Below are positions 3,047 to 60,194 of a stretch of 64,000 nucleotides of DNA, one piece after another. This DNA comes from Isoetes taiwanensis (taxonomy: Eukaryota; Streptophyta; Lycopodiopsida; Isoetales; Isoetaceae). The position numbers and the translations under genes are program-made. Numbering within the stretch: the first letter of the stretch is position 1; each line of letters starts with the position of its first letter. The notes beneath the pieces were generated by a model. That model saw only the letters and a program-made list of their open reading frames with translations, made no database searches and was not told the origin of the DNA. Where the stretch lies: the NCBI GenBank assembly GCA_021234155.1, contig JAJEKV010000005.1, positions 10,100,572 through 10,164,571 on the forward strand, written 5' to 3'.

Positions 3047-6000
3047 GTAAATTCCTTGATTGTCTCTGGCAGCCTCTGCGACAATTTACTTTTAAATTTG
3101 TGATTGCAAGGATTGGGATTTACGTTTGCAGGTCATTTTTCTCTATGTTCAACCTTTCTCAAAAGCATTCGATACGATAACTCATACCCTTGGGGCTTGA
3201 AAGGTCGTACAATGGCAGGGTTGTGGAAATTGCATAGCAAAAATGGTTTTTCTTCTTACGTCGTGCAGGCATAGAACACATTGTATATCAAACCATCTTG
3301 AAGAAGTTGGCGCAGATCCGGACTTAAGAAGAAGTATAGTAAGATACCAAGTGTCTAGGCCTATATCAAATTGTGAAGAAAAGTTCGATCGTCCACCTTT
3401 GTCTGTAGTAATGTAAGATCGATTGAATCTAAGAACAGGAGCAAGAAAATTATAGTTCAGATTTGCACATCTATTAGGAAGTAAGGTATTTGCCAAAAGG
3501 GAAATACGTCCATGTTGATATCATGAAAGGTAGTCTGTTACTTGGACTGTAGCATTGGTTGTGACAAATACAATGTTGCTTCGTGAAGTTTTATGCTGGT
3601 AAGCCCACATAAAAAATGATGGCCACATCCTCCTTAAAATACCCCCTTTTGGAACCTTAATAACAGGTGAAAATGGTAGTAGCACTAGCTTAAAGGTGAG
3701 ATATTTGGAAATCCAACTCAGAGAATGATGCATTTTATGGTCCTTCAATGGATAGAAAGCACAAAACAACAGGTAATTGTTTATAGAGGAGAAACATTGC
3801 ACAATTAGAATGGAATTGTCTACCATTCAAGTTCACCCAAGCATTCCACAGCTACTCTAAAAAACTACAAAATAATAGAAATTAGAACTGTGGGCATCCC
3901 ATTTCTGCAATAATCCTCATATTAAAAATCAGGCCCTTCCATTGATCTGCATGCCCTCATATAGAAGAGCCATTGCCTGCAAGAAAGGTTCATCTCAAAT
4001 AAGGATCATGAGCGGGATGTAAAGATGTGCAAAAACGTCACAATGTGCAAAAAGACTGCTTAGATCAAGTATGGAAGAATAGAAAAATAATCAATAGCAT
4101 GAGAAATGAATGTTCTAAAATATGTGAGCATCATAAAAGTTTACCTTTTCCATCTGTGATGTACATAGATCAGACCTTTCTTTGTTTGTGATCGCCACTT
4201 TGGGAAGATAAGTTGGTCTCCTATAAAGAAAAACTAAGATGGAGATGGAAGATAACATTGCAGCCTGCTCCAACTTGATTTCCTTGCCATTAGCATAAAT
4301 AAAAGCAATTATAAGGGCCAAGTGGGTTCTAACGAACCTGGATCATGTTCTCCTTCTGTCCTGGGAAAGAGAGGAACCAAAAGCATCAGATTACATATGA
4401 CCAAATCCGAAGCAAGACAACACCTACAACATATTCTGAAATTTGATTAGAGTAGACGTCAAGTTAGAACAAAGCAATCAAAGATATCATATAAGCAAAA
4501 AATCTGGTGATTTTTATATGGAGCACACAGAAATGGAAGAAAAATGGACTGTCAAAGGTCACCTACAAAGATGAACTGTGTAACTTTTGTTTGCTTTCAA
4601 GAGCATCATAAAGATAGAACACTCAAATAAGCATGCAATTAGGATTGTAGCCAACGTTCCTTAAAATAGATGACTGTCAGTAGAGGAAAAATCAACATTT
4701 GATAATATGCCATTGCATATATTCCGCTTATGGTTATATCCAGATGAATATGGTACCCAAAGACTTCAAAACACGTTGCATTTAAAGACTTACACGAATA
4801 TGCCAACATTCACCATTGAACAGGATGTCAATACAGGGTTGTATACTACATAAACTTGTATGGCATGTAGTCTCTAGAAACTTTTCTTCAGCTCTAGAAA
4901 GAATCTTTGTCCGAGAAAAACCTATGTTTTGTTGTTGCAGTAAAACATGATTGCTCAACAGATTGATCTATAAATGAAGCATAAGGAATGTCATGTTGAA
5001 AATGACATTATTCTTGCTTGCAATGCCATTATTCTCCTGTTTATACATTTTCGAGTATTCCTTTAACAGATGCTTATGTGATATTTGCAAAAAAACAGTG
5101 TCCGAGATTTGTACTACGAAGAACATCCAGATTAAAAAGCAACAGCTATTTGAACAACACACTCCTAGCTGTAATCATTCTAGCATTCCTGCCGAGAGAA
5201 TGAAGCAGGGAAGGATTGATGGCAGGTTGCAGGATGTCAATTGTTGTTGTAAAAACACGGTTACATCAAATACATTTAAGCATAAGAGCCAATGGCAAAA
5301 GTGAGTTTTCAGCCCGGCAGGACAAAAGGTTGTTTCTCTGAGATTTTATGTCTGTCGTTTTCCTAAGTGAATGCATGTGCATGCATAACCTAGGTTGACA
5401 GGCTATGGATTTCAAATTTGCTGGAAGTTTAAAACATTAGTCTAATAGATTTTTTCCTGATCAAATAGTCATCCAAGGCTTTATATTTCTTACCTTTAGA
5501 TTTAGTGGTCTGGGTGCTTAAATGAATGCGTGCAAAATGTCTCAAATTTACTCCTTTGAAAGATGATTGGGACCAACCTCTAGCTTGATGTTGCCCAATC
5601 AAGGTGTTGTTTAAAATGCCAGACACTACGATTGTGTACTTATAGTACCTTGGGTAGTGTACGCTATTCACGCCTTGTACCTCTAAAGTGTAGGGTCAAA
5701 AAAAAAAAATAAAAAAATTTATGAGTTTAAATCATATCCTCAAGACAATTTTGTGCCTCCCTAATGTCTAATGTCAACTTCAAGGCTAAAAAACTCTAAT
5801 TATATGTTTCTCGCCATGTAGTGTTTGACAAAGAGCGTGTAAAAGTTTTGTGCTTATATTTCTTTGCTTTTAGTACTAATTTCAATCCATTTACATGAAC
5901 TTCTTATTGTGGGTTCTTTTTTGACCAGCCAAATCTCTTAACCAACTCCTTATAGTTCAGATCTTATAGAAAATTCTCAAAAAACTCTAACCTCAAGTGC

Positions 6001-6950
6001 AAATTTGCAAAATTTACATAAAGAACTTTATATTTTTCCCAGACGTGAACGTCTCGCACGCATTATACATAAAACAAAAACAAAGACATGGAAAAACGCA
6101 TATAACGCATCAAAAAACTCTAAAGTACATAAAAGGTACAAGATCTTTGAAGACGATCGCACAAGTATTGTACACTAAGTACGTGACAACACTGTGCCCA
6201 ATTCAAGTTCTATCCCCTTGTATGTATGTAATTGCATAAAGTCGCCTACAAAGACCGCCATAAGAGTTACCTTGTGCATCATCTATTTCTAAAGAAAAGG
6301 ACCCAAGGACCTTTTTCAAACTAACTTAAGAAATATATATATTGAGGTTCTGATATTTATCCATGACTAATTTTAAATTTGCAGGCCAAGTTTGGTAGGC
6401 CGCTGCCCACAATTTTCGTTACCAAATGATGTAGAATCTATCGCTATAAGTTTAGCCTCCAAATTTTGAACATGCTATCACATAGAAAGCGTAAAAGCCC
6501 ATCAATTGTGGGACCGAAACTTGCAACAAGCAACTAAGATAATGAGGAGGATATGAGCCGCTCGTGACAAGGTATTATTTCTATTCAAGAGCCTCTAATG
6601 TTTAACCGCATAACGCCATCATTCAATAACATGTCATTGGAAACAGAGCAAAGAAGTGCCTACGGAGTCTATGAACTTTGCATTAAGCCGCCCTCTCTTG
6701 GTACCCATTTAAAAGAGGGTGGCAAAATTTTCCGCACTCAAGTAACGACGCCGCCTTTAGAATCAAGCTATTGCGGGCTAGTATCGGTCCTAGATTAGAT
6801 ATCATCTTTAAAGTACACGCCATTTAGACGCTACTCAAGTAGTTTCTCCCCCCGACCATTATTTTAGCCTCGCGAAATTACCGTATTGTCACTTGGAGGG
6901 GAGGAAGTTACCGCAAGGTGATCCACGCTGGAAAAAGGGTCTTTGATGGG
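3047..6950. other. Intergenic stretch, no recognised gene (copy A)
   Basis: AT-rich DNA without a recognisable gene. One 76-nt piece on the minus strand (4145-4220) is bounded by TATAG and a GTAAAC donor and stays open in both copies, but I cannot assign it to a family. A run of A sits near 5699-5718. Around 5990-6230 copy A has scrambled versions of a GTAC-rich block that is clean in copy B. Copy B counterpart: 36754-40640. Confidence 0.6.
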
Positions 6951-7094
6951 CAAAAAAGACTAGGGTCGGTGACACCCGGTTTCAGCCGATGCCCCTAGAC
7001 TTGCCCCTAGGATCCCCGCAAAAAACTTCCTCAAGGTGGGATTGTATCCCTGCCTACAAAGTGTGCATGTATGGCCAAAGTTTTGCCCAACGGA

Positions 7095-7190
7095 TGTGTG
7101 GTGAGTTGGTATAGGTCTAGTAATGTAAAAAATATTATGGGTTCAAATCTTGCCAATGTCACTTATATTTGGAAGTTGGTTACTAGGGGT
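7095..7190 (+). mobile_element. tRNA-derived SINE-like unit 1 (copy A)
   Basis: A box A-like stretch (GAGTTGGTATAGGTCTAGTAATG, from 7103) is followed after about 30 bp by a box B-like GGGTTCAAATCTTGCC. This is the spacing of an internal RNA polymerase III promoter of a tRNA-derived SINE. A real tRNA is unlikely, because the flanks do not form an acceptor stem. Confidence 0.55.
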
Positions 7191-7639
7191 ATACGATGAT
7201 GATCCCTGACGTGGTAGAACTTAAAAACTTATACATGTCCTCCACTTTGGTCGCTCGCTGGCAAAGGGGACAAAACTAGCTAGTTTGTAAAAAGACTAGT
7301 CTAGACCAAGAAAAAGTTGGTTTTACGACATCGTGGCTAGTTTATCGTGGTTACCGTAAAAAGCCCTCTAGTCATAGGATGCCCAAAAGTCATAATGCGG
7401 CAAAGCGCACTAGGGTCGGGTGAAATTACGTGGCTAGTTTATTGGTTAGTGTAAAAAGCCCTCTGGTCCTAGGATGCCCAAAAAGTCATACGTGGCAGGC
7501 GGCAAGAGGGGTCGGTGACGCTTAGTTTCAGCCGATGCCCCTAGAGTTGCACCTAGGATCCCAAAAACTTCCTCAAGGTGGGATTGTATCCCCGCCTACA
7601 AAGTGTGCATGTATGGCTAAAGTTTTGCCCAACCGATAT

Positions 7640-7712
7640 GTCGTGAGTTGGTATAGGCCTAGTAATGCCAAAAATAAGTGTTCATTTGGTCATGGGTTCA
7701 AACCTTGCCAAT
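7640..7712 (+). mobile_element. tRNA-derived SINE-like unit 2 (copy A)
   Basis: Second occurrence of the same unit, with GAGTTGGTATAGGCCTAGTAATG and GGGTTCAAACCTTGCC. It lies in the second half of the local tandem duplication. The box B match is better here than in unit 1. Confidence 0.55.
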
Positions 7713-7854
7713 GTTATTTATATTTGAAGTTGGTTACTAGGGGCATAATGATGATGATCCCCGACGGGTAGAACTTAAAAGCCTATGCATGTTCTCCACT
7801 TTGGCTGCTCGCTACAAAGTGGGACAAAAAACTAGCTAAATAATCCAAAAACCT

Positions 7855-8095
7855 TGCCCCCAAGAATGGTTGGAGGGCTTTGCCATTTGAGGTCGCCATA
7901 GCCGATGCTCGCCTGCTTTTGCCGCTATCCGCTCAAACATCAAGGGCCCACAACGCAGTGACCGCCAGCGCCAGGAACAATAGGTTTGAGCAGCCACCAA
8001 AGATATCCAGTATATTCCAAAGATATACTTAGGATATGCCACAAACCATATAAGCGGTTTTATCACTCTAGGGGGCAATCCAAAAGAATTATGTT
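7855..8095 (-). repeat. Dispersed repeat family member 1 (copy A)
   Basis: Read on the minus strand, it begins TTTTGGATTGCCCCCTAG, continues through GGTTTGTGGCATATCC and a TATTC/TATAC segment, and extends into CTATTGTTCC and the region around 7900. The same head and order occur at 8641-8768 and 12400-12605. Variable far ends with a shared head suggest a retroposon (SINE-like) family. Copy B counterpart: 40985-41230. Confidence 0.5.
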
Positions 8096-8640
8096 CTTTT
8101 GTTCTTCCCATCAAAATTATTTGAGCATAATGGGCCACTATAAAAAATAAATCTACAAATAAAGAGTAGTTCTTTGCGCATCTAAACTTGAAAGACCTCA
8201 CGCATTTAACTAGCCTTGGCTATGGTTGTGCGGTTAGAGGCCGATAGAAGAAGCACTAGAAATCGACGCCATCTCCTATCTCCTGATCTATTTTTGGGGG
8301 TCTTTTGATAGGCTAGAATTGTAAGAAAAGGTCAGAGGCTTGTTGCTTTGTGATTGCATTCATAGAGTAGACCTTGATAACCAATGTCAAGAGCCAAGAC
8401 GTTGGCTTAAACTGCCACTCTAAACTGCTAATTGTGTTTTATGATGGCTAAACGTCCCACTTATTTAATGAAAGAATACAAGGGTTTTCTTATCTACCTT
8501 GTTCCAAGTCATTTTCTCAAGGATAAAGGGATGAAACGAATTAACAAATTGGAAGTTTTCTATGGGATTGTAGTGGAGTTTCATGTAGTTATGGACATAT
8601 TCGAATTGTTATAAACATACAATTAGAATAAGATGATAAT

Positions 8641-8768
8641 AGAAATAATAATAATAATAATAATAAGATAATTCATTTCTGGTAACCTGGGTATATTCTA
8701 GCATATACCCAGGATATGCCACAAACCCACATAAGCCAGGGTTTGCCCCCCTAGGGGCAACCCAAAAA
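8641..8768 (-). repeat. Dispersed repeat family member 2 with (ATT)n tail (copy A)
   Basis: On the minus strand this short member starts TTTTTGGGTTGCCCC and carries the hairpin formed by GGGTTTGCCCC and GGGGCAACCC. It then has the palindrome GGGTATATTC...GCATATACCC and ends in an (ATT)n tract (8641-8665 on the plus strand). A head plus a simple-repeat tail is typical of short retroposons. Confidence 0.55.
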
Positions 8769-8910
8769 TTGGTTGAGTCATCATACATAACCATAATTGT
8801 ACTTATCAACGGTAACTTTTTTTATTGTTCTTTTTTGAGGCAGTCTAGGGCAAGCAAAGTTAGAAGGCATCATTTCTCTTAGTGTCTATATTAATGAGAC
8901 ATTTTCTTGT

Positions 8911-9633
8911 AGCAACTGGAGCCATCAAGAGTTTACTCAAGTTCAAGAGTGGCAAGTAGCAATGGGGATAGCCTTGAACGTAGCAATGGGAGTAACCTTG
9001 ATCTGGAGTCATGTGCTTTGCTTCTACGACAAAACCCTGCATGGAAAAACATCTAAGAAGTATTTCTAAAATGTAAATAGTTGACATCCCAATGACGCTT
9101 CTAGACAATCTTGTACTAGGTAATTCCCATGAGGATTTCCATTATGCCATGTAAAGGACTCAAATTCGCTAGAATTTTTACGCATTTAATGACCCACCGA
9201 CATAATACAGCCATTCACATCCATTATTCGATATAGAATTCTCTAGATTTAGGTTTAGGGATGAATATGTAGCAAATCGATTCATCAAGAGATTACTCAA
9301 GCCTCAAGAGTGGCGGTGTAGCAATTGGGAATAGCCTTGAATGTAGCAATGGAATGGCCTTGATCTAGAGGCATGTGCTTTGCTTCTACGACAAAACCCT
9401 TCATGGAAAAACATCTAAGAAGTATTTCTAATATGTAAATAGTTGACATCCCAATGACGCTTCTAGACAATCTTGTACTAGGTAATTCGATGAGGAGGTC
9501 CATTATGCCATGTAAAGAACTCCTAAATGCTGCTAGAACCCTTTATAGACGTAATGACCTAACGGACATAATAGCCATTCACATCCATTATTCGATATAT
9601 AATTTTCTAGATTTAGATGTAGGGATGAATATG
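8911..9633. repeat. 360-bp tandem duplication (copy A)
   Basis: Two direct units of about 360 bp (8911-9270 and 9271-9633) share ATCAAGAG, CTCAAGAGTGGC, GTGCTTTGCTTCTACGAC, AACATCTAAGAAGTATTTCT and GACAATCTTGTACTAGGTAATTC. The units differ by scattered substitutions and are present as a pair in both large copies, so this duplication is older than the 33-kb one. No coding function is seen. Confidence 0.85.
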
Positions 9634-10266
9634 AAGCAAGAAGCCTAAATCAAAATCAATTTCTAATCTAGAAAAAACATTCCCCTTGATTTCCATCAAA
9701 ATTGGGCTTAAAAATGTCATAATCTCCATCTAAATTGGGTTCATGACAACGACGCCACCACCTACAACAGATAGAACAATGACATACAATATCATCAACA
9801 AGATATCTTACTAATTTCTAGTCCGCAACAAAAACATCTCAATTATTATCTCCCAAATGGCAACACTTGAATTAAGCGTGGTTGGCCCCCCCAAATTCCT
9901 CAGATCCCGAGTAAGGTTAATTGCAAAGAAAAAAACTTGTAATGTTTGTTGATGGATCCTTTAGGCACCAAATCCAAAGACCAAATCGCATTACACAAAA
10001 TTTTTATATACAGAGCATAATGCTCCAAATCCACGTAATTGAGCTTACAATATCTCAAAATATAATGTACATGATAAGGCAAAATTTGAATTTCATGTGA
10101 CATGAATAAAAGGCCTCATTCTGGCCTCCTTGCCATACTTTACCTTCCGAATCAGAGAAATACTTTGAATAAGTTTGCAACAATATATAAGACTCGTAGA
10201 AACAGCCAACTCAATTAACTATGTTCATGATATTTGAATTTTAATCAATAGTTAAATGCTACATAC
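9634..10266. other. No recognised gene (copy A)
   Basis: AT-rich spacer downstream of the METTL14 fragment. I searched the minus strand for the family's C-terminal tail and did not find it. Copy B counterpart: 42785-43424. Confidence 0.5.
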
Positions 10267-11165
10267 CTGTATTATAGTTTGATGAAGTGAGCCCCTTTCC
10301 AATGGTCACCCAACCAGCACGAATATTATGGTCTCTCCCAAACAGTTCAAGATGCCATTGACCAAGTGCAAAACGTTCAATTATGTGATAGAGCTCTTCC
10401 GCTTTGTCACCGCATTCGTAGAACCATGCAAAGTTGTTCGTACATAGATTGTAAAATTCAAAGCGCCTTAACGGTTTTTTTGCAAAGATAAAAGTATACC
10501 ATATGAAGGTTCTCCGAGATATTATCACATCCGTGTCAACATTCACGCAGTATGATATGCCCATCCGGATCGCCAATAATACGCTCCCCTTAATATCCAT
10601 CAAACAATGTTCCCCGAAAAGAAGTGCTATACCCTTTTATCCAAAACCTAAAGGCAATGTCTTGTAAATCATAGCAATACTATGTCTAATATTTGCAAAG
10701 ATTACGATGCCAACCGTGAATACTCCTTCGTGATGATTGATCCCTTTATCTCGCAATGCCAAGACGCCCATCTTGCAGAACATGCTAGATGTAAAAAATG
10801 AAATGACATTGGCACATAAAACTTATTGTTAGGCAAAGATAAGACTAAAACAACTAAAGATCTAAAAGCACAAAAAAAAACCTAAAAGTAACAATTTCTA
10901 TCTTTTCAAGCACAAGAAAAGGCACCGGTACAAAAACTTATTGTTAAGCAAAGAGAAGATTAAAAACCAACCAATGATGTAAGGCACGAGAAAAAGACTA
11001 AATATGACAACTTCTGACTTTTGAAACAAGGTTTCCAATTACTTTACATGGCGTGATTCACACAAGACTTCAATGCGAAAAAGGGTGTTTGAATCATTTC
11101 AAAGGCAGAGATGGATTTTCCTTATCCAAAGATATATCTTCATACCGCCGAAAACCCCACCATGT
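10267..11165 (-). pseudogene. METTL14/MTB-like methyltransferase gene fragment (copy A)
   Basis: On the minus strand, three exon-like pieces encode the C-terminal half of an MT-A70 family protein of the METTL14 (plant MTB) type. These are WGFRRYEDI near 11150, NVDTDVIIS near 10540, and a stretch with ELYHIIERFALGQWHLELFG and DHNIRAGWVTIGKGL at 10267-10405. METTL14 proteins pair with METTL3 in the mRNA N6-adenosine methyltransferase. The family's HCLMGIKGTV and EEPPYGS blocks are corrupted here (DIKGSVLLAIR, SRRTF), although copy B reads them nearly perfectly. I see neither the N-terminal half nor the catalytic-core exons upstream (towards 12 kb), nor the C-terminal tail, so this is a partial gene. 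Confidence 0.75.
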
Positions 11166-11179
11166 AAAAAATATCATGC

Positions 11180-12399
11180 CATCAGAAGTTAGAAATCGCA
11201 CCCGAAAAGTCGGGTGAAAATAAGCACCTGACTTTGATTGTGCAGCGCCCACCATCGCCGCGCAGTTGTTACCTAACCCTGCATAGAATAGCAAGGCACG
11301 AAAATGGCGCAGAAAGCAAAATGCTTGTGGAAATAAAACATAGAATAAGACACCTAGTTGAGAATTCATCCTCGCAGTGGAATCTAGCCAAGGCACGTGA
11401 AATGGCTCGAGCAAAATGTGGTGTAGAAGCCGCTGTATGGAAGTAAGGCCACAATTAGTGAGACATAAATGGAAATAAAACATAGAATAGGACATCTAAT
11501 GAGAATTCATCTCAGACAATATAGACAAATACTAGAACATATAAGTATCTACATGATGATTAAACATCACGAAAAAGCCGTACCATGTAAAGAGCTTTCG
11601 GACGTCGGGATTCATCTCTGCACACACATCGTATGATTATGATGTCCAGATGGTCTCACCGCAATGCCTCGCCACGATGCAATTCAATACTAAACAAAAA
11701 TAACACAGTTTTGCTAAGGTTATGCAAATGCTGCTAGCTCATGAAAAGACGCCAGATAAGGTTACTCTAAAAAGGAATTCTTATCATATAATCCTTCCAT
11801 TGTTAACCATTGAAAGAACAATTCGAAGAAGAAAGGGGCAGAAAACAATAAACTTGTAAACTAGAACATGAGAGAACAAAGAATTTGTTAAGAATTGTGG
11901 AACGAAGAGGAGGAAGCGTATCTTGGAAGAACACGATGCTGAAACGGAAGTTCAAAGCTGAGATGCAAAGTGAACAGAAGATATTTCCTCCACGCGTTCG
12001 GATCCCTAAATAAATAGGTCTTTTGCATAGAATATAAATCGAAATCACCAGAATGAGAGGATGCATAGAGCTTATAGTTCTGAGAATCTCAAAGCTAGAT
12101 GCCTTGAAGCTAGATGCCTTCAGAAGAGAAGAAGAAAGGTGGTGGCAGGCCCATCAGAAGATCTATGCAAAACAGAACAAATGGATTAGAACATGAAATA
12201 GGATGCTAGCATCTACAGCCAGATATCTGGCCTTTAGGGCTCTTTTCATCGTCAGATTTTTATTAACCTAAAATCTGACTGGCCAATGCACCATCTCTGA
12301 TGAGAACCGGACATAATCAGGCCTTGAAAAAGAAAAGGTTTCTACAAATATGGCTTCGAAAGGCACCAGGAGCCGGAATGCACCAGGAGCCTGATGATT
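11180..12399. other. No recognised gene; short internal repeats (copy A)
   Basis: Contains two occurrences of a ~35-bp piece (GGCACG, AAAATGGC, GCAAAATG) at about 11296 and 11393. It also has two of AAATAAAACATAGAATA plus GAGAATTCATC at about 11332 and 11470, and a doubled GCTAGATGCCTTGAA near 12090-12118. The upstream METTL14 exons would be expected here on the minus strand but are not recognisable. Copy B counterpart: 44320-45539. Confidence 0.5.
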
Positions 12400-12605
12400 C
12401 AAAAGCTCGCCACTTTCAATCTGCCTTGCCAGTTACCCGGTTGCAACATCGGCGATACAGAACACAGGTGAACGCCAGTTTACAGGGAACAATGGGTTTA
12501 TAGCAGTCACAAGCATATCTTGGGTATATTCTAGCATATACCCAAAATATGCCACAAACCCACATAAACCAAGGTTTGCACCCCCCTAGGGGCAACCCAA
12601 AAAAC
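12400..12605 (-). repeat. Dispersed repeat family member 3 (copy A)
   Basis: The longest well-preserved member. It shares the CCTAGGGGCAACCC hairpin, the ATATGCCACAAACCCACATAA block and the GGGTATATTC/GCATATACCC palindrome. It then shares with member 1 the segment containing GAACAATGGG and TTTACAGGG. Copy B counterpart: 45540-45742. Confidence 0.55.
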
Positions 12606-12904
12606 TATACGTTGAGCTGATTTTGGGATTTTTGTGATGTACTAATGAAACTTTTTCTGCCATGTTGTATTTTTTTTTGCATTTATGCTTCATAAATTCC
12701 TAATTAATGCATAGTATGACATTAAATTCTGAATTTTTGTCAGCTGGCTTCCTAAGACATCATCACTGCACAAACCAATTTTCAGAAATTTCAGATAAAA
12801 TTTAGATCAAAGATTTAGCATTAGAATTGTCCGAGCAGCCTGCTGTTGAGCTGGCAACCTTCTCCAAGTTGTTGAGCTGGCAACCTTCTCCAAGTCAAAC
12901 AAGA

Positions 12905-13100
12905 CTAGGACTTTCTAGGCCGCCCCACCATATGGGGGAGAGTCCGCACTGTGATCGGTTGGTCGCATTTGAACCCGTGACTTCGAGCAATGGATTTTAA
13001 GATCCCCATTACTTGATCAATGTTGGCTATGTTTGAAACCCTAACGTCGGGTGTGGCGCTTAAGGTCCCGCTACTAGACCATGCCCTTATCTTCTTTTGG
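12905..13100 (-). mobile_element. tRNA-derived SINE, minus strand (copy A)
   Basis: On the minus strand, GGGCATGGTCTAGT resembles box A and TCACGGGTTCAAATGCGACC resembles box B, about 100 bp apart. This suggests a tRNA-related head with inserted sequence, or a rearranged SINE. Just outside, at about 12838-12895, a 29-bp unit (GTTGAGCTGGCAACCTTCTC) is directly doubled. Confidence 0.45.
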
Positions 13101-16100: not shown

Positions 16101-16504
16101 TGTTCTTCTGAAGTTCGAACGAAAAAAACAGAGCACAAAGAAACCAGAACGAAAATGGCAATTACATATGAAGGATATTCACCTCGAAATAAATTAATTT
16201 ATTTCCTCCTTTTATTTAAATGGATATAAAACTATTATCATATGATGGAGGATCACATAGAATGACTCCAATCCTCATAGTGGTAGATAAAATTTATACT
16301 TCAATGAGAAAGTGCAACAACCTTTTGTTAACTACTGCAATAAAGTATTTATATTCTTCCCGAATGAAGGGATGAATGCAACAATGAATTTATAATTATT
16401 AAAGATCCAATTTCGTACGTATCAAGTTTGAAGAACTGAAAGCAAGATTATACTACACTTCATCCAAAACGCCTCCTTCAGGTCTAAGCAAGCACACGGC
16501 TTTT
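13101..16504. other. No recognised gene (copy A)
   Basis: Holds a 110-residue open frame at 13741-14073 with no recognisable family, whose copy-B version differs by one residue. A purine-rich tract lies at 14283-14370 and a run of about 22 A at 15025-15046, which is much shorter in copy B. A ~42-bp segment near 14690-14735 (containing TTTTGTTCGATAATCATC) is missing from copy B. Nothing supports a gene strongly. Copy B counterpart: 46241-49611. Confidence 0.5.
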
Positions 16505-21601: not shown

Positions 21602-21647
21602 GATGCTCTTCTTCTTGTGCTATGCATATAAGACTTGTTGTAGAGGT

Positions 21648-22113: not shown

Positions 22114-22116
22114 TAA

Positions 22117-41919: not shown

Positions 41920-42060
41920 TGGTTGAGTCATCATACATAACCATAATTGTACTTATCAACGGTAACTTTTTTTATTGTTCTTTTTTGAGGCAGTCTAGGG
42001 CAAGCAAAGTTAGAAGGCATCATTTCTCTTAGTGTCTATATTAATGAGACATTTTCTTGT

Positions 42061-45742: not shown

Positions 45743-46054
45743 CCAAAAAACTATACGTTGAGCTGATTTTGGGATTTTTGTGATGTACTAATGAAACTTT
45801 TTCTGCCATGTTGTATTTTTTTTTGCATTTATGCTTCATAAATTCCTAATTAATGCATAGTATGACATTAAATTCTGAATTTTTGTCAGCTGGCTTCCTA
45901 AGACATCATCACTGCACAAACCAATTTTCAGAAATTTCAGATAAAATTTAGATCAAAGATTTAGCATTAGAATTGTCCGAGCAGCCTGCTGTTGAGCTGG
46001 CAACCTTCTCCAAGTTGTTGAGCTGGCAACCTTCTCCAAGTCAAACAAGACTAG

Positions 46055-46240
46055 GACTTTCTAGGCCGCCCCACCATATGGGAGAGTCCAGACCAGGATC
46101 GGTTGGTCGTACTTGAACCCGTGACTTCAGAGCAATGGATTTTTAAGATCCCCATTACTTGATCAATGTTGGCCATGTTTGAAACCCTAACGTCGGGTGT
46201 GGCAGTTTAAGGTCCTGTCACTAGACCATGCCCTTATCTT
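46055..46240 (-). mobile_element. tRNA-derived SINE, minus strand (copy B)
   Basis: Counterpart of 12905-13100 with the same box A-like and box B-like sequences (GTCACGGGTTCAAGT). Here copy A differs mainly at CAG, CTG and GTAC sites. Confidence 0.45.
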
Positions 46241-49200: not shown

Positions 49201-49611
49201 TCCATTTTGTTCTTCTGAAGTTCGAACGAAAAAAACAGAGCACAAAGAAACCAGAACGAAAATGGCAATTACATATGAAGGATATTCACCTCGAAATAAA
49301 TTAATTTATTTCCTCCTTTTATTTAAATGGATATAAAACTATTATCATATGATGGAGGATCACATAGAATGACTCCAATCCTCATAGTGGTAGATAAAAT
49401 TTATACTTCAATGAGAAAGTGCAACAACCTTTTGTTAACTACTGCAATAAAGTATTTATATTCTTCCCGAATGAAGGGATGAATGCAACAATGAATTTAT
49501 AATTATTAAAGATCCAATTTCGTACGTATCAAGTTTGAAGAACTGAAAGCAAGATTATACTACACTTCATCCAAAACGCCTCCTTCAGGTCTAAGCAAGC
49601 ACACGGCTTTT
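46241..49611. other. No recognised gene (copy B)
   Basis: Counterpart of 13101-16504. An open frame at 48613-49107 (164 residues) is present only in this copy, because copy A differs at several CAG/CTG sites and has indels. It has no recognisable domain and is probably incidental. Confidence 0.5.
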
Positions 49612-52600
49612 CTAACAAGCCTCACTTTTTGGGATATGATTGCGATCAAGGAATAACTTATACCAAAATGCTGATTCCTTTGGATATCTTTTCAAGTTTT
49701 CACTTCGTTCTATATGAAACAACCCAAATCTTCTAGTGTATCCAGCATTGAATTCCCAATTATCTGTAACTGACCAATGAAAATATCCCTTTACAGGAGC
49801 ACCATCCCTAAAAAACAAAATGTTAGTCAAGATAAGATCTTGAATAATTAAAAAAATATAGACAAACCTAATAGCATGTAGCAAGTTCTGAAGATGGGCA
49901 TTAAAATACTTCATCCGCAAATTGTCTTTGATTGCTGTGGGAAGTTTGGAATCATGAAGATCCATGTTTCCTGGACAATGCTAAATCAGAGAAGACTAAC
50001 TAAAATTATTCCAAAGTACTTGAATATGAAGCATACCATTTTCAGTGATGTAAATCTTTTTAGGGTTGTATTTTTTTCCAATGTACTGGAGTAGACTATG
50101 AATTCCCCAAGGGGCCAGGTTGAAACTACCATTCTGTAAAAGAAATTATTCGACGGCAAACAAGAACATCTTCAATTAATGAGTTTATAAAGAATGCTTA
50201 CCTCTAGACCAATCCGTTCCCCCTTTGTGTTATAGGCTGAAAAAGACAGTGAAATATAGAAACATATAAATATATGAAATAAACTTATATGTATAGAGTG
50301 CATTTTCTCCATGTATGCAACATCAAAACTTACGTGTGCCATAAACTTGATGGTCTGGACCATAAGCCATGATGAAATTTGGGTGTTTCGTTTCGTCCGC
50401 ATCAGTTGCATAATGACTAGAGTAATAATTAATCCCTAGGAAGTCAATCGAGCCCTTGATTTGGCTTGATTCTGCTGCACTAAATGTTGGCAATCGCGAT
50501 CCAACCCTGTCCTTCATTACTTGAGGGTAATCTCCATTTATGATGGGATTCAACAACCTAAAGAAACTCAAATTAGTCACATTAGTAATGAGGAAGAAAA
50601 CCAAGTGGATATGAGGGCTTTTTACCATCCAAGCTCAAAATCCAGGGCTCTAGATTGAGCTGCAGCATCTTCTTTTGAGTCAGTCAAGGGTTCATACCAA
50701 CTAGAATCTAGCGTGATTCCAATTTGCCCTTTTTGGGAAGCCTACAAGGGCAAGGTTAAAAAGATGATCCATGTTAGTATAGCAAATTCTTAATTCTCGA
50801 AGTAAAGAATCCAGGAAGGGAAAAGCTATCTTATCTATATCTAGCTCTAGCTTATGGAAAGAAAGTGATATTCCCTTAAAACTATAATTCCAAAGAGACA
50901 AATTTTTTTGTTGTTGATACCTCTATTCTAATATTGCTTCATATTTGTGGTACTTTAAGAAGCACGAATTCCTGTCGCAGGGGTCCACTTCAATAATCAA
51001 AACCAATCAACAAAATACTCCGACGACTTTTGATATTTAAAATTAGTTATCTTATATAAAAGAAAATTATGATTATCATTCCCTGAGAATGTTCAATAAT
51101 ATCGAATACTATGTCATCCTTCTAGAAACAACCATGAGCTGTTTTAAGAAGCATGCTTTAATTGTCAAATTTGACACATGACAAGATCTTGCGGTATGAG
51201 TCTAGAGATGACTATCATACCTGAAATTCCTTCTTGTACACTATGAACTCCCCTAAAATAAATTAGCAATTAAAGAGAGGTGCCTTGGCCTTTGGTCTAG
51301 TGGTAACAACTAGTGCTAGAAGAAATATGTCTCAAGTTTGAGACCACCCGGAGCCGCACTATGTAGAGACCATCCAGAGTCGCACTATGTATAGTTCTGT
51401 CTCATGGCCCTATGTGGTCTTTGGCATCATCTGATGTACTAATTATACTTGGTCGTCTATATGGTCTTTGACGCCTATCCGCATAATTTGATGCGTATGT
51501 GGTCTTTACGAATATGGCATATTTGATGTACTAATTATACTTGGGAGGGGTATCTGCGGACATGGCATAACTTGACGTCCTAATTATAATTCATAGGGGA
51601 GACTTGGCTAATAATTATTTTGACGTATAAGACACAACAATTATATTTTAATTCTAACATGATTAATAAATAAATATGGTGGCATATGGTAGGCTATGTG
51701 GTCTTTGATGCCTATCCCCAATATTTTGATGTCCATGTGGTTTTTGGGGACGTGGCATATTTGACGTCCTAAATATACTTGGGAGGGCTCTATGCGGACA
51801 TGGCATAATTTGATGTGCTAAATTATGATTGGTAGGGGAGACTTGGCTAACAATTATTTTGACATATGAGGTACGACAATTATATTTTAATTCTAACGCG
51901 ATTAATAAATACCATTTGGTTGGCCTAAAGATGCTTTTCTATCGGTTGGATGTGGGTGCTTTTATAACCATTGGATGGTCTTTGACGCGTATTTGCGGAT
52001 GTGGCATATGGTTGCTTATATGGTCTTTGACGCCTATTCGCACAAGTTGATGCCTATGTGGTCTCTACAGACGTGGAATTATTTGACGTACTATTTATAC
52101 TTGGAAGAGGTCTCTGCAAACGTGGCATAATTTGACGCACTAAACCCAAGGTTCGACTAGTCTGACAGTTTGCATGGGAACAAATCCAAGAGATATAAAT
52201 AAGCAAATGACACAGTTGTGGCAATTCCACTCCAGGGTGGAAGTCTTTGACATGAGGCAGATATCAGAGAATTTTGTGACATATCAGAGATTTTTGTGAT
52301 GGGGGAGCTTGTCCGAGAGATGGATCAAGATCTTGCCACCTGAGTTGAGTAGAGCTTCAATCCACGAACTTCCAGGAATGTAATAAAATGCCAATTCCGA
52401 TAACTGCCTCTGATTTCTTGCCAAGAACCTGGTAGTTGTTGTGGTCGAGCTTTCAACTTGGTGCCATAATGGAATCTGGGCCTAATTATACTTGGGAGAA
52501 GTCTATGCAGATGTGGCATAATTTGACATATAAGAGAAAGCCCCTCCGGGCTTGATTCCGGAGGGTCATGCAGGCCGACACGCGCCGGAATCAAGCCCAG

Positions 52601-54715
52601 AGGGGCTTTCACCTAACATAAAAATCGACTACTCTACTTTCAGCCGCTGATCAGATCTTGTCTAATGGCCTTGATTTGATTATGCAAGAATACACTTCAA
52701 AAAAGAAGGGTAAAACGTGCAGTTGTCAGAATCACAGGGTAGAAAAATCAGAAAAGAGAGTGAAAATTGTCTGGTCGGTTTTCTTGAATTGAATCTCTGC
52801 CAGGTGGCGAGATATGATTGGCAGATTGGGCTAAAAGTAGAGTAGGCGGTTTTTACGAAGTAATTATAATTGGTAAATTGGTATGGGAGACTCCATCACG
52901 GTAAATGTCGGACGTGGACATGTTATAGCCAGCCTTAAATGGCAAAAAATCTATTTGGTTAGCAGAAGTTGCTTTTCTAACAGCTGGACGTGGGTGCGTT
53001 TGTAACCGTTGGATGTGACACGTGGCAAAATGGGTCGAGTTTTCACAAAGACATACCTGGAATTCCTTCTTGTACGCTGCAACGGCGGAAGAATGTGCTC
53101 GGAGCATGTTGTGAACAACAATATAGGGTTCCGTTTTGGAGTCTCCAACAAGGCAAACAGGCGAATCGTGGCCTTCCGGTGTAGCTTGGAATTGCTCCAA
53201 TCCAACAGAATCAGCTGGCTTGTTGCATCGTCCAGGTGCCCAGTTGCCCAATAAATAGCCCTGAATTGTGTTCATATGTGGCTCGTTTAATGTGCACCAA
53301 TTCTTCACTCTGTCTCCGAATGTCTTGTAGCAGAATCTGGCATAAGCTGTGAAATCTTCCCTGTTTTTTTTTTCCATTTCTAACAGTTTAGCAAACTGAA
53401 CTTTTCAATTGGTGAACAGTTTTCGTTTACTTTTTTTTGTACTTACACAACTTGGTCGTCCATCCAGCCTAGATATTTGCAATGCAGCGCCAATGGCATG
53501 TCAAAGTGGTGCAGTGTTACAAAAGGCTTGATTCCTGAGACCGAGGAACGAAAAGGTCAGAAATGTATATTAAACTTGGAAAGAATCTGGATAGAATTTT
53601 AAAATGCCTTTGGCAATCAATGCATCAATCAGATCATTGTAGTACTGGACCCCTTCTTGGTTAACCTTCCCGGTGCCCTCTGCAAAGGTCCAAATCAGAA
53701 CAGGGCCAAGGAGTTCAAAAAAGAAAACAAACGTTCTACAAATCTTTTTTTTTTTCTTGAAAGAGAATCACAAATGCTGCACGCAAGCACTTACGAGGGA
53801 ATATCCTTGCCCAGGCAATAGAGAACCTGTAGGAGTCTACATCCAAATACTTGAGACATTGATCTATGTCTTCCTGCATACAAGTGATTAATCAGCTACA
53901 GGATGCTGCTAAGAGTATTTATGAGCTACACAATAAACCTTATAACGGTGGTATGTATCAGCAGCAACAAAGGGGTTTCCATTATCTGGGATATTGCTAT
54001 CACTTTGGATTTTGCCTGTTAATCAGAAAGCATTGTGAGAAAAAAAAAGGGCAGCAGATTGCAAGGTTTATAGGGGCAAGTCAGGACCTGAATCTCTGAC
54101 AAAAGCATCCCACACAGTTTGCCCTTTGCCTCCAGTAAATGCAGCACCTTCAAACTGCACCAAGTGTTTGCATTGCAGAGTATGGTGTTATATATACATA
54201 TCAGCAGACATATGCTTTTTGTGTTTACATATCAGTGAATCAGTATACATATCAGTAGACATATTCAGTAGGGAACCTACCTGCATAGCAGATGATCCCA
54301 CCCCGAATATAAAGTCTTCGGGAAACGCAGATCTGTGCAAACCCTCATTGAACACAATGGGACTGGTCAGATTCGCCGCGGTTGGACCACAAATTTCGAT
54401 TGCAGGAACAGAAGCAGCACAGCAGAACACCTTCACTGCAAATTACAAATGGCACAGTTATGAGCACCAAATTAGCATCTCAGATTACAGTAGAGTTTGT
54501 CTATGAATGAATAAAGAACCTCCTGTGCTTCTTTTGATCCCCACACTTTGGCAGGACACTAAAGGTAACCTGATATCAAGATGGATCAGCAACAGAAAAA
54601 GCAAAGAACAAAATAAGTTTATGCATTCTAATTACCTTGGCATGTAAGCATTGCCATTTCTTGGAAGGAATTCTGATGGAGAAAGTGAAGAAGAGAGCAT
54701 GCTAGACATAGCCAT
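49612..54715 (-). CDS. GH1 beta-glucosidase, probably plastid-targeted (copy B)
   Basis: Same exon layout as the gene at 16505-21601 and open in all exons I could follow, giving about 580 residues. It keeps the transit-peptide-like start, [24 protein letters not shown], the consensus SSWYEP segment (copy A has SISYEP), [10 protein letters not shown] (two residues longer than copy A), YITENG and [14 protein letters not shown]. Differences from copy A are mostly single substitutions, many conservative ([15 protein letters not shown] against [15 protein letters not shown]), in the last six exons and in exons 6-9. This suggests two functional alleles or paralogues rather than a gene and a pseudogene. 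The second Trp of the DNFEW glycone-binding motif is Phe in both copies. It is probably expressed from the short promoter with a TATA box at 54761-54768. Confidence 0.92.
51280..51372 (+). mobile_element. tRNA-derived SINE in GH1 intron 9 (copy B)
   Basis: Counterpart of 18171-18262 with both boxes conserved. Confidence 0.6.
51440..52140. repeat. Imperfect ~240-bp tandem repeats in GH1 intron 9 (copy B)
   Basis: Counterpart of 18330-19030 and nearly identical to it, in contrast with the clearly diverged exons on both sides. Confidence 0.75.
52536..52610. repeat. 26-bp GC-rich inverted repeat in GH1 intron 9 (copy B)
   Basis: Same hairpin as 19427-19501, unchanged. Confidence 0.85.
52620..52854. 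mobile_element. MITE-like element in GH1 intron 9 (copy B)
   Basis: Counterpart of 19511-19745, with the same inverted ends and length. Confidence 0.5.
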
Positions 54716-54760
54716 GATGCTCTTCTTCTTGTGCTATGCATACAAGACTTGTTGTAGAGG

Positions 54761-54768
54761 TTATATAG
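54761..54768 (-). promoter_or_regulatory. Putative TATA box of GH1 gene (copy B)
   Basis: Same CTATATAA at the same distance from the ATG at 54715. It is conserved although the sequence just beyond it (54775-54930) diverges from copy A. Confidence 0.5.
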
Positions 54769-55769
54769 ATGGTAGCACGTTTTATATTGTAGAGGTGTAA
54801 ACTTTCACATGGCTAAGGCCACATGTATATACTTCTCATGGAGACTGTCCACATCGCCAAGACGTTTTCAAGCTTGTTTTCCAAGTATATAGTATATGCT
54901 GAGGTTGCAGAGTCGCTCTTTTTTAACTCTTTTTACCTACTCTTCAAATTCAAATTGTTCAAACAACACGTGGTGGGTACTTAAAAGTATTTCATTTAGC
55001 CTCTATAGGAAATTTTCCTTCTGTAAACCATGGTTCTCATTTACAATCCTCAAGAAATTTTTCCTATTAATGGTTCCCCAGGTAGCTCCTTAACATTTAA
55101 TTTTGGTAGATATGAGACAAATACTCCTTCCATTAACAAAGTGTACTATTCTCTTTCTTAAGAATCTATTAAAGTAAGGGTCCATTCAGACCTATGGTTA
55201 AGTTAAGTTAAGTTAAGAAAAAATTAACTAGCTAGTTTAACTTAACTATAACAATTGTATTCGCACCCAAAAGGGTTAACTTTCTATTAAATACTAAACT
55301 TAACTAAGACAAGCAAAATATCTTCACACCCACAATAGTTAAATTAATAATTTTAACCTAACTAAACAACATGGGTTGTTGTTCAGACATTGTCCTATTA
55401 AGTTAGTAGTTAACCAAAATGCCTTCACACACGCCATTAGTTAAGTTATAAAATTAACGAACTAGAATGCCTTCAGACCATTCTAGTTAAGTTTATTATT
55501 TTAAACTTAACCAATTGCCCTCACACATGTTCTAGTTAAATTATCTACCTATTTCAAAGATTTTGCTTTATTTACCTACCTTTAGATATAAAATTACAAT
55601 GGTATAAAGTCTATATGCCAAACAAAATACACCATACTACGTTTTGAGCATATTAAAGAAATATAGATATCTTTTTATGGCATAAAGTTAGCATACAATT
55701 ACAATGAGTTCGTATGACGAAAACGTATACCATACGTTATAAACTTACGAGTAAAAGCAGTTTCTAGAT

Positions 55770-57404
55770 TCATGTAAATACCAAGTACTCTTTCAAGGAT
55801 TCTCGAATATTAAGACCCTCTTGAATCTCAAGACTCTCTATTGTGCCGCTCTCAACTTCATTAGTATCTTCAAGGCCCTCTACCATAGAAGTTCCACTCT
55901 CAACTTCATTGTCATCATCATTATTCTCAACTTCATGATCATTATCATTCCCTTCAAGTTGTCGAAGTCTTAATTGTTCCAACTCCTCATCCACATTAGC
56001 TTCACCAATATCAATTAGCAGATTGTGAAGGATGCAACATGCATGTGCAACTGTTGGAACATACATGGGCTTCATCCGCAACCTTGTATCAAGACATTTG
56101 AACTTGCCTTTTAAGAGCCCAAATGCTTGCTCGATGTATAAGCGTCCACGTTTCAACTTCTTGTTAAATATAGCCTCTACAAATACAACAATGTTATTTA
56201 AATATTCAAAAAGACAATAGAAAGAACTAACTTCTTACCCGCAATAGTTAATTGCCTAGGATCCTTCTGATATGGTACCATCAACCATGAAGAACATTTA
56301 TAACCATTATCTCCCAACAAGTATGGTTTTAGCTCCCTCCTAAAGACAATATCCACAGTAGGTGCTTGCAATAGTTGGCATTCTTCAATCCTTTTCTTGA
56401 GACTTGAATTTCTCAATACTCTAACATCATGTACAGATCCAGGATATCCACAAAATATGTCCAGGAATCTTCGCTTTGTATCACAAACTGCTTGCATAAT
56501 GATGCTGAATCTGCATTTTCTATCGTAGTAATCAAATCCAGCTGGACCTGCAGGTTGTATGATTTCAAAGTGGGTACAATCGATTGCACCAGCTGCAAAA
56601 GCAAAAGTGTTAGTCATGAGTTGTTTTGCTGGTTCATCCTTCACACAAGATCATCATATCTATAAGTTATCCTAATTCCATTCAAGCTCATCTCATCCTT
56701 GAATTCTATAACTCAAGCATAAATCAACAACAAATTTGACAAAATTGAAATCAACAACAAAATTGACAAAAGCATAGATCACGAGACTGAAACTCAGCAA
56801 CATTTGGCAATTTCGAAACTTGTTGAAATCCAGCACTGATCTCCTCTAAGTCTGCACCTGATGGGAATTTTATTTTATGTCCAAACACTTCCACAATAGC
56901 TTTGCAAACTTCCATCACTATCATATGTGTCTCCCCTATACCAAATTTCTCCGATAGGATCAAATAATCCGACCCTCTAAACGATTTTAGCAGGCAACAT
57001 CCTACTCTAACATCCACAGGGATAGCCTTTCTATAATGCGTATCTTGCTGTTCAATCTCATTACTCAAACTGTTGCATAAAAACTCAAAGCAATCCTTTG
57101 ACATCCTAAAGGTCCTCTTCCACCTTGCATCATCGTAATATCCCTTTACGAAGCGATCAAACCAAGTAAAGCTTCTTGGCTTCACCCACCACTCGCCTAA
57201 ACGATGTCCACAAATGTTCTCATACCCTAAAGCTTGCAATGTGGTAACCTCATCTTGTACTAGCTTGCCGATGGAGTTATCTTCATTTTGTTGTAGCAGC
57301 AGCGTTAAGATTGTGATACATCCAGCCATTACTATCATCAATCCTTGTACTAGTTGATCTTGGTCCTCATTATAAAGCTGCATAAAAATCTCATTAGACG
57401 TCAA
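55770..57404 (-). CDS. PIF/Harbinger DDE transposase (HARBI1-like) (copy B)
   Basis: This catalyses element excision and insertion through an RNase H-like DDE domain (DDE_Tnp_4 type). Exons: about 56805-57404, 56239-56592 and 55770-56176. The first carries the N-terminal helical region (RWKRTFRMSKDCFEFLC, FGIGETHMIVMEV). The second has the first catalytic Asp (AGAIDCTHFE), GYPGSVHDVRVLRNS and the second Asp (LLGDNGYKCSSWLMVPY). The third has the Glu (YIEQAFGLLKGKF), CILHNLLIDIGE and an acidic tail ending at 55770. All three DDE residues are present. The acceptor before the second exon is clear (TTTTGCAG), but the first exon's donor near 56805 is not canonical as written, so the gene may be slightly damaged or misread there. 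Activity also needs a Myb-like partner, which I do not see. Confidence 0.82.
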
Positions 57405-58108
57405 GTTATTTTATCAAATTCCAAATTATAGGATAATAAAAAATATTCTAAATTATAAGATAATAAAAATATTCTAAATCAAATTAACGCTGGATATGAC
57501 CAGTTGACGGATCACATATGAGTCTATATGGCTAGTTTCAAGGAAATGACACGAAGCTGTATGGGCTGGAAAACCAATGGGCATCTCAAGGTATGAATGG
57601 AGGATATGAACAAGATGGACCTTGGATAATATAATGGTCTATCAAATTAACGCTGGAAATGACCAGCAGATGGATCATATTAGTGCCTACAAAACAAGTC
57701 TTTAGAAAGGGGCAAAGATACACATGAGAACAAGGCTTTATGGATTGGGGGAACCATGGGGCTTCAAAGATACATGTGAGAACAAGGCTTTATGGAGTGG
57801 TGGAACCATGGGGCTTCTCACTATATGTATGGCATTAAAAACTACAAACAAAGGATATTAAGAGTACAGGTCATAAAGAAAAATAAAAATCGATGAAGGA
57901 TGTCACATATTGCCTAAAGGGGGTGCATGCCTTCTATAGGAATAAAACGTTAAGGTGTTCTGGGAAGGCAGCTCAATGGCAAGACCATATGGTAAGTCTG
58001 GAACTGTTTGTCAACATATGGGTAAAATAGCTTTAAGTAAGGTTGTAATTCATGTGTAAGAATGGAGGCTACTGGATCAAATATGTACCTACAAGGCAGG
58101 TTTCAAAA

Positions 58109-58279
58109 GATTGTGCTTCCATTCTCAAGCTCTACCATCTTAGATACTAATCCAACTGACCGGAACTTAAACCTGCATAGTATGTTAAGCACATATGCAA
58201 GATCTATTCCAAAACAAGCCATCACGAACTTATGCAATTCCAACTCCACAGAAATGTTTGAGGTTTATAGGATTTTGGT
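58109..58279 (+). repeat. 171-bp inverted repeat, arm 1 (copy B)
   Basis: Identical to the copy-A arm at 25046-25216. Confidence 0.85.
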
Positions 58280-59391
58280 CAAAACAACAAGTTTAAAACA
58301 GCAAATTTAAAACTGTAACTTTTTCCAGATCTGTGGCTGAAGATCTGCTGCCGATTCATGGGGGATCAAAGCAGGGCGCCAGTTCAGGGGCAGGCAGAAG
58401 GCTTAGTGCAGCCAAAACGTGGCTGGGTCTGCACCATAGAAGGCCTAAGCCATATGAGGACTGGATGTAGAAGAAGAGCTGGCACCAAAATGATGGTTCT
58501 CTTCTTAGCATATACAATGTAATATAAATTTGCGGGTAGTGAAATTTGCCCTTTTTATGTTGGTAAATGCCGAGCTCACTAAATAATGGCTTGTCCAATG
58601 CTACCAGCTTTGCTAATAATTGAGCAAGTCTATGTATATAATATGAGAAAGTAACGCAGGGAAAAATATTTTAAAACTTAGATTTTGCATAAACAATAAT
58701 GTAACTGTGAACTTCTTTCTTCTCTTTTTCTTAACCCACGAGTAACACAACTTGTTATGTGCCTTATATTACATTATGCAAGGATGCTACATCACTATAA
58801 GACTTAAGTGACAAGTGCACAACCATTGTCGAATTATCGAAGAACCTTCATTACAAATTTTCATCCTCTTCTAAAAGCATCATAAGTAGCATGACTTATC
58901 CATACACATTTTATGTGCACAATATATCATCCAAGAATGCAAGATGAATTTTGTTCTTTGTTATTAATTGAATATTCAAATCGGTTCCATTGAACTTACA
59001 ACACAGAGAAGAATCAAACGTGTATGAAAGAAAAATGCATGCTATGGTCCCATAGGATTAGATTAGTACATGCAACCTGTTGCTCATAACAAAAGCATTC
59101 AAAATACAAACATTCAAAATAAATAGTAGTGGTGTATGAATTTCTTCAATCACTTACGTGTGCATGTGCCCAATTCATAATTATCCAAAAAGAATTCAGA
59201 CAAAGGTACACACAAGTGGCATGGATCCTATTGACTAGTTTGGTATACAATCCATAGGAGATTAGTTGTTGGAGAAGGGACAAATTGCCAGACGTATGAG
59301 TTTATTTCATAAAATTTCTCATGTGGAATTGGTCACCTAACAATGGCGGCAAGGAACCTTCGGGCTGGAAAGCCAGGAAACATTGGCAAGC

Positions 59392-59565
59392 ACCAAAATC
59401 CTATAAACCTCAAACATTTTCGTGGAGTTGGAATTGCATAAGTTCGTGATGGCTTGTTTTGGAATAGACCTTGCATATGTGCTTAACATACTATCATGTG
59501 TTTAAGTTCCTGGTCCGCTTGGATTAGTATCTAAGATGGTAGAGCTTGAGAATGGAAGCACAATC
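59392..59565 (-). repeat. 171-bp inverted repeat, arm 2, altered (copy B)
   Basis: This arm alone of the four differs, and only where the others have CTG, GCAGG or GGTCAG: here TTTTCGTGG, ATCATGTG and TGGTCCGC. Three arms agree against one, so this arm is either mutated or miscalled. Confidence 0.8.
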
Positions 59566-59596
59566 CATTGCAAGTTTAAAACAAAGAAGTTTAATC

Positions 59597-59790
59597 ACCG
59601 TAATTCTCGCCACAAGTCCAGTAGCCATAATTCTCGCCACAAGTCTCAGAAATATAAGTTCAGAGCCATAATTCCGCCACAAGTCTCAGAGCCATAATTC
59701 TCGCCACAAGTCTCAGAGCCATAGTCCCAGAGCTAGCCATACCCGCCACAAGTCTCAGAGCCATAATTCGCCACAAGTCCGGGATGCGTG
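59597..59790. repeat. 25-bp minisatellite inside Harbinger element (copy B)
   Basis: Counterpart of 26519-26705 with a different unit composition: most units read CTCGCCACAAGTCTCAGAG instead of CTGCCACAAGTCTGTAG. Again the changes lie at the CTG positions. Confidence 0.8.
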
Positions 59791-60194
59791 CATTTTTGCT
59801 TGAGGATTTAGAAAAAGCCCCTAGTCAGGCCCTCCACATACCAAAAATCTCACAGACTAAACCCTCAGATTCGCTAGCAATGGTAGCATGACGGATGATG
59901 ATCGTAAGGGTAGCACCTTGGCTCCCCGAATTGTAGGGTATTCTTGCAATATTTTCGCTTTTGTTATAATCAAATCTGATAGAATCCCTATTTGCAAAGA
60001 TGAAGAGTGAACCATCCGTAGCGGATGAATATAAGGGCATAACAGATGAATATAAGAATCCCTAAGAATGAATCCAGAAGAAAGAACTTAAGCTCGGCCC
60101 TACATAACTTAAGCTAAGAATGATGCATCCCAAAAATGAACTTAGCTCATCCCTACGTAAAACGTAAAGGATAAATGCTTCAGATATAAAGTTT

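Follow-up and report, generated by a model that had tools for sequence, protein, structure and literature searches.

Stereotyped differences at CAG and CTG between two tandem copies in the Isoetes taiwanensis assembly point to base-calling errors repaired in one copy only

The window analysed here is a 64,000-nucleotide stretch of the Isoetes taiwanensis genome assembly (G000:C1056:10100572-10164571; the assembly comprises 1110 contigs totalling 1.66 Gb). The window contains a tandem duplicate whose two copies differ in a stereotyped manner at CAG and CTG motifs. Copy A lies on the + strand at 1-30920, its start falling at or before the window edge, and copy B lies on the same strand at 33704-64000, where it reaches the other edge. 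Both were delimited by self-BLAST, in which 1-7282 matched 33704-40974, 7494-14690 matched 40637-47834 and 14729-30920 matched 47835-64000, each at ~95% identity. Alignment of 1-31000 with 33704-64000 yielded 609 short blocks of difference and revealed that identity between the copies was very uneven, with many 250-column bins at 100% and some down to 82-90%.

Eight segments had a clear better copy as judged by CAG/CTG counts; we refer to the other, error-bearing copy as the odd one. Copy B is odd, again by these counts, at 33704-39100 (opposite A 1-5400), where its changes take a form that we call style P. Copy A is odd at 5600-12000, mainly in a second form called style M, and at 12700-16000, mostly in style M with some P labels. 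Further odd patches of copy A lie at 23000-25600, within and next to the reading frame of a DDE_Tnp_4 transposase, at 27500-28500, where the style is mixed, and at 30000-30900, where seven M and three P labels were assigned by rule and the exact edits do not resolve the style. Copy B is odd once more at 59073-60377 (opposite A 26000-27300; style M) and at 61626-62271 (opposite A 28550-29200; edits too few to place the style), the ends of both being approximate. These ranges agree with those of the initial annotation, to which they add copy B as the odd one from 33.7 to ~39.1 kb and near 61.6-62.3 kb. The transposase frames (A 23.1-24.3 kb, B 56.2-57.4 kb) span 150 and 219 amino acids in copy B and 130 and 190 in copy A, with Pfam DDE_Tnp_4 scores of 70.5 and 57.3 bits, respectively.

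Two other segments of copy A, at 16500-17600 and 20000-20700, served as controls of ordinary divergence. They have fewer gaps, and in neither are the differences concentrated at CHG sites (nor, in the first control, at CAG/CTG), CHG being the plant methylation context in which H is A, C or T. Using copy A as the reference, 38/219 differing columns of both controls were at most 3 bases away from a CHG site (coverage 22%), and using copy B, 58/219 did (28%); proximity to CHG thus does not exceed coverage. Compared with ~49607-50707 and 53109-53809 of copy B, the controls drop to ~82% identity per 250 columns, while the rest of the copies is near-identical. GH1 glucosidase reading frames lie around both, one within 16500-17600 itself. 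These segments perhaps arose by gene conversion or from a different source for the patch.

Sequence context and strand form of the differences

The initial annotation had described CAG and CTG differences that alternate between the copies, and these are real. Both of its examples are present. Near 8000, copy A reads ACCAAAGATATCC where copy B, near 41145, reads ACCAGCATATCC; GTTCAGG of copy A near 2033 stands opposite GTTCGAGG of copy B near 35740. CAG/CTG content was richer in B in 188 of the 609 blocks, richer in A in 106 and equal in 315, and these polarity labels fell into long runs along the alignment (55 runs among 294 labels; 5000 shuffles gave 136.6 on average and never fewer than 108). 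Counting without any choice of a better copy, we found CAG/CTG in at least one copy of 336/609 blocks; 500 rounds of random placement averaged 90.4 and never exceeded 114. No other trimer was as frequently confined to a single copy of a block (281/609, with AAA/TTT next at 198).

Restricting the analysis to the eight segments, we tabulated the differences by trinucleotide in the aligned copies, a check that had been suggested with the initial annotation. A difference touched 347/594 CAG/CTG sites of the better copy (58%), against 13% of all trimers. Touched sites also included CCG/CGG (49/127), CGC/GCG (38/112) and ACG/CGT (67/257), while ATG/CAT (32/965) and AAT/ATT (37/1168) were little affected. 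The better copy held CAG/CTG in 284/466 blocks, with random placement (2000 trials) giving a mean of 68.9 and a maximum of 95. When only sites with no other CHG within 8 bases were considered, 95/185 CAG and 102/170 CTG were changed, as were 12/34 CCG, 12/27 CGG, 39/164 CG and 70/560 AAA; TGCA (2/82) and CAA (12/383) were rarely changed. CAG and CTG stand as affected contexts, and the original list was incomplete in that CCG and CG sites are affected too. GTAC, which had been included in that list, proved to be a bystander: 5/29 isolated sites were changed, four of them being CGTAC (three became CGCAT and one gained CAT) and the fifth a change from GTAC to GTAT, so GTAC rides mostly on CHG and CG. 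GATC, with 1/31 isolated sites changed, was rejected as an independent motif.

Measured by column, 1048 of 1393 differing columns (75%; gaps of at least 15 columns excluded) fell in zones reaching 3 bases to either side of a CHG site, which make up 27% of bases. The odd copy had 15.3 CAG+CTG and 24.4 CG per kb, compared with 28.3 and 17.4 in the better copy. The errors are thus concentrated at a modifiable motif, as in nanopore consensus error induced by base modification. It had also been argued that the changes are unlike cytosine deamination, and the alignment bears this out: the edits at the odd patches are multi-base with insertions and deletions, rather than the C-to-T or G-to-A changes alone that deamination at CHG would leave, and gaps make up 24-48% of differing columns in the eight odd ranges, compared with 17-19% in the two controls. 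Seven readable random background stretches (an eighth was N) gave observed/expected ratios for CAG/CTG of 0.69-1.27, a spread too variable for a genome-wide rate.

The edits come in two forms that are reverse complements of each other. In style P, seen where copy B is odd opposite A 1-5400, CTG becomes CTTTG, CTTG or ACG and CAG becomes CGAG, CGG or CG. In style M, seen where copy A is odd at 5.6-12 kb, CAGC becomes CAAAG, CAGT becomes CAAG, CAGA becomes CGTA, CAGG becomes CGTG and CTG becomes CCG or TCG. Rules based on these forms labelled 100 blocks, 60 as M and 40 as P, in 25 runs (shuffled mean 48.9; 0/20000 shuffles as low). We also matched whole edits exactly between segments. Between 1-5400 and 5.6-12 kb, 14 matches were in reverse complement and 3 were direct, so that strand-specific reverse-complement forms are found within the window, above all between these two segments. 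Direct matches prevailed between 5.6-12 kb and 12.7-16 kb (13 direct, 3 reversed) and between 26-27.3 kb and 5.6-12 kb (6 and 2). Edits of 12.7-16 kb matched those of 1-5400 2 and 2 times, and those of 27.5-30.9 kb matched 5.6-12 kb 3 times directly and 3 times reversed, and 1-5400 3 and 5 times. Style is independent of which copy is odd, as copy B at 59.1-60.4 kb is M. The P and M styles have the appearance expected if each strand were miscalled in its own way. The possibility that local sequence alone sets the style was rejected, as GCAGAAA shows both styles in the window.

Further copies and ribosomal DNA

To the two copies of the duplicate we added further copies found elsewhere in the assembly. 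Of 11 further places matching 8000-8600 at E below 1e-110, nine (L050-L058) were compared over A 7850-8650, where A is odd. They favoured B in 154/172 blocks (85 identical to B and 69 nearer to it), with 6 for A and 12 ties. For A 1450-2450, where B is odd, 4 other places were taken from the 40 further matches listed, and three of these (L061-L063; L064 was omitted, being the same place as L063) favoured A in 56/62 blocks (44 identical, 12 nearer), with 4 for B and 2 ties. These further sequences thus identify the CAG/CTG-retaining copy as correct in each case, B over A 7850-8650 and A over 1450-2450.

The same edits recur in ribosomal DNA (rDNA). We examined 93 5S units in 42 kb of array and neighbouring DNA, 10 of which were identical to each other. 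In 59 scored altered units (a set that omits units below 45 bits, intact units and those in L015 and L016), TCAGA became TCGA 37 times and CCAGC became CCGGC 11 times, and TAGTACTG became TAATCTTG 18 times and TAATCTTTG 16 times (34 together). One 5S site was then surveyed at 97 places by means of a pattern whose flanks were fixed and whose centre could vary, which covers intact-flank units only, the split being counted by hand. The site was intact in 13/58 units of the array on contig C13, 5/12 of the array on C907 and 20/27 elsewhere, so that altered units made up 45/58 and 7/12 in the arrays against 7/27 outside them. Among the seven altered places outside the arrays, one carried a stereotyped edit (C1032) and six carried other changes, four of the changes being a single C-to-T or G-to-A. 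At this site errors were thus frequent in near-identical copies and rare in dispersed ones, as expected of residue left by polishing. Intact and altered units alternate within one array.

In 45S rDNA, 18S was present in 4 of 7 fetched stretches, and we examined its universal primer sites. Working rRNA genes are not expected to change at universal 18S sites. Sites containing CAG/CTG were altered in 4/4 copies (GCAAGTCTGGTGCCAGCAGCC), in 4/4 (GAGGCAATAACAGGTCTGTGATGC) and, at the 3' end, in 3/4, while AACTTAAAGGAATTGACGGAAG, without CAG/CTG, was unaltered in 4/4. For 5.8S, 25 of 40 places listed were fetched and 23 compared (L019 and L023 were omitted). The site TGCAGAAC was altered in 10/23 copies, all in the M form (CGTA); these copies are L018, L020, L022, L025-L028, L030, L031 and L038. 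The error form is thus contradicted by independent truth in the third copies at two places, in the 5S arrays and at the 18S sites.

Origin of the differences

The initial annotation had named base-calling or polishing error at modified CHG cytosines as the simplest explanation, and sequence context, third copies, 5S, 18S and the two styles all support it. We hold, with a probability of roughly 0.93, that the stereotyped differences are assembly errors from nanopore miscalling at methylated CHG and CG sites that were repaired in one copy only. Native DNA carrying 5-methylcytosine at CHG (CAG, CTG and less CCG) and at some CG would have been read on a nanopore, and a base-calling model untrained for CHG methylation would have produced fixed, strand-specific miscalls. 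Accurate reads would then have corrected most of the genome. Where copies were near-identical, accurate reads would have been drawn to the copy that already matched better, leaving the errors in the other, and the winning copy would alternate along the duplicate. Polishing with accurate reads that settled on the already-matching copy is probable because 5S is mostly right outside the arrays and mixed inside them. The CG gained by odd copies may reflect a base-calling model that met 5-methylcytosine mainly before G and writes G after it. In this account the nanopore platform, the causal role of cytosine methylation, the polishing by accurate reads and the competition among copies are what we infer. 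Most of the apparent divergence between copies A and B seems to be data error, not biology.

Several observations weigh against this account or limit what it rests on. The choice of segments and better copy underlies the counts of context, style and CG gain, the 284/466 blocks and the column distances; the third-copy comparison and the 336/609 block count are independent of it. The rules for style labels were written after the edits had been seen, a circularity from which exact-edit matching is free. A total of 345/1393 differing columns lie more than 3 bases from CHG, and 233 of those are not near CG either. Common 5S edits also fall off CAG/CTG, with GGCCG becoming GGCG in 35, GTCCC becoming GTCC in 28, GCGC becoming GCGGC in 23, TTAA becoming TTAAA in 22 and CTCCC becoming CTCC in 19 of 472 edits. 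Two 18S sites that lack CAG/CTG were altered as well, GTACACACCGCCCGTC, where CCG and CG occur, in 3/4 copies and GTAGTCATATGCTTGTCTC in one of the two copies containing it. Some third copies agree with the odd copy, L057 in 5/20 blocks and L052 in 1/19. Finally, the 45S style tracks rRNA sense and not contig strand (10/10 altered TGCAGAAC sites are M, with 4 on + and 6 on - copies), and the edits in 5S agree with those of the M-style segment at 5.6-12 kb 62 times directly against 6 reversed, though their CTG forms look like P.

We had considered contig strand as what sets the 45S style, and this was rejected, M occurring on + and - copies alike. The reading of the 5S arrays as plainly style P was likewise dropped in view of the direct matches to 5.6-12 kb; against 27.5-30.9 kb, exact 5S edits gave 3 direct and 37 reversed matches. 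The coherent style of some loci (long runs in the window; M in every altered copy of one 45S site) might conceivably mean, though we are doubtful, that one strand's reads or modification dominate each repeat locus. By analogy with human telomeres, where reads of one strand were lost with a fast base-calling model (PMC9414165, in excerpt), some loci have perhaps lost the reads of the worse strand.

Among alternatives, a variant of the artefact that overlaps our preferred explanation would have draft segments derived from single one-strand long reads, with no competition between copies during polishing. The run-clustered strand styles in the window speak for it; however, the same rRNA-sense style is found in 45S copies on both contig strands, and the alternation of intact and altered 5S units in one array suits selective repair, so that we regard this variant as unlikely. 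We consider it very improbable that the errors are intrinsic to the sequence and arose in base-calling or consensus independently of base modification. Similar current profiles do give stereotyped, strand-specific miscalls at human telomeres (PMC9414165), and non-CHG changes occur here too (AAA away from CHG, as counted above, and several 5S edits), but it is CHG and CG, the contexts methylated symmetrically in plants, that are hit hardest, with TGCA, GATC and CAA nearly untouched. Least probable of all is true mutation separating the copies, for instance through a CHG-targeted process following methylation, with gene conversion mixing the outcome: mutation of methylated CHG cytosines does occur (C-to-T at CTG, giving GTATTGGG, at three non-array 5S places on C90, C1035 and C1071), TGTAGAAC occurs in 3/23 5.8S copies and 16.5-17.6 and 20-20.7 kb look truly diverged, but deamination would yield C-to-T or G-to-A only, the multi-base indel edits recur in unrelated loci (both 5S arrays and the universal 18S sites) and the third copies contradict them.

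Uncorrected base-calling error at methylated cytosines is an artefact of a known kind. With models not trained on Dcm methylation, ~70% of consensus errors in a Klebsiella genome fell in Dcm motifs (CCWGG) with the then-current models (PMC6591954). This bacterial case shares with ours systematic consensus error at methylated-cytosine motifs on which the model was untrained; it differs in that the sites here are CAG/CTG/CCG and some CG, in a eukaryote and in near-identical repeats. In Listeria, nanopore errors at GCAGC and GCTGG were ascribed to untrained modifications (PMC10687267). These motifs likewise contain CAG/CTG, but they are two pentamers, whereas here the context is CHG in general and the edits are multi-base. 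The telomere miscalls (PMC9414165) are likewise stereotyped and differ between strands; they were ascribed to similar current profiles of simple repeats, unlike the CHG/CG sites in ordinary sequence seen here. For plants, DNA methylation was named as one likely cause of lower nanopore accuracy with general models (PMC9749173). That study shares methylation as a likely cause of base-calling loss; its excerpted passages hold no catalogue of CHG edits, and the term CHG is absent from its main text. A literature search of open-licence papers, confined to listings and so no proof of absence, found no catalogue of CHG edits for plant assemblies.

The apparent divergence of recent duplicates, of rDNA arrays and probably of other near-identical repeats is inflated in this assembly, as are any dates and selection estimates built on it, the errors mimicking clustered substitutions and indels. 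Loss of CAG/CTG together with gain of CG in one of two near-identical copies offers a screen that needs no reads. It is conceivable, though we are doubtful, that the error patches can be read as a record of where the molecules that were sequenced carried CHG methylation, written in a fixed edit code per strand. If so, public nanopore plant assemblies could be screened, by sequence alone, to find methylated repeats and duplicates whose divergence is falsely inflated.

Other features of the window and the assembly

Plastid rbcL was tried as a negative control and dropped. The two copies differed by 147 mismatches in 1445 columns, with ordinary-looking substitutions; they are not near-identical copies, and the comparison is silent on methylation. 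One of them (L065, G000:C840:16500-24500) lies on a 34.6 kb contig and has an open rbcL frame that is 10% different over the 1445 columns from the other (L066, C1052:5412700-5420700). Contig C840 is perhaps, to judge from this sequence, a foreign plastid contig.

Further copies of 1450-2450, at 90-97% identity, lie on this contig ~67-87 kb upstream (G000:C1056:10032961-10033604 and 10013413-10014475) and on a second contig (C907:28501971-28502576). Given these copies, the duplicate may be part of a larger array. Copy A contains a direct repeat of ~330 bases, with units at 6963-7282 and 7509-7838 at 85% identity, opposite ~40637-40974 in copy B, and copy A exceeds copy B by 547 columns here. 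Part of the mismatch between the two units falls at error-type sites. An inverted repeat of 171 bases is present in both copies, at 25046-25216 and 26319-26489 in copy A (arms 99.4% identical) and at 58109-58279 and 59392-59565 in copy B (94.9%), one arm of copy B falling within an error patch. Between the copies, at 32500-33500, two 500-base bins have observed/expected CG near 2 (54 and 72 CG per kb), far exceeding the neighbouring bins compared (30000-34500).

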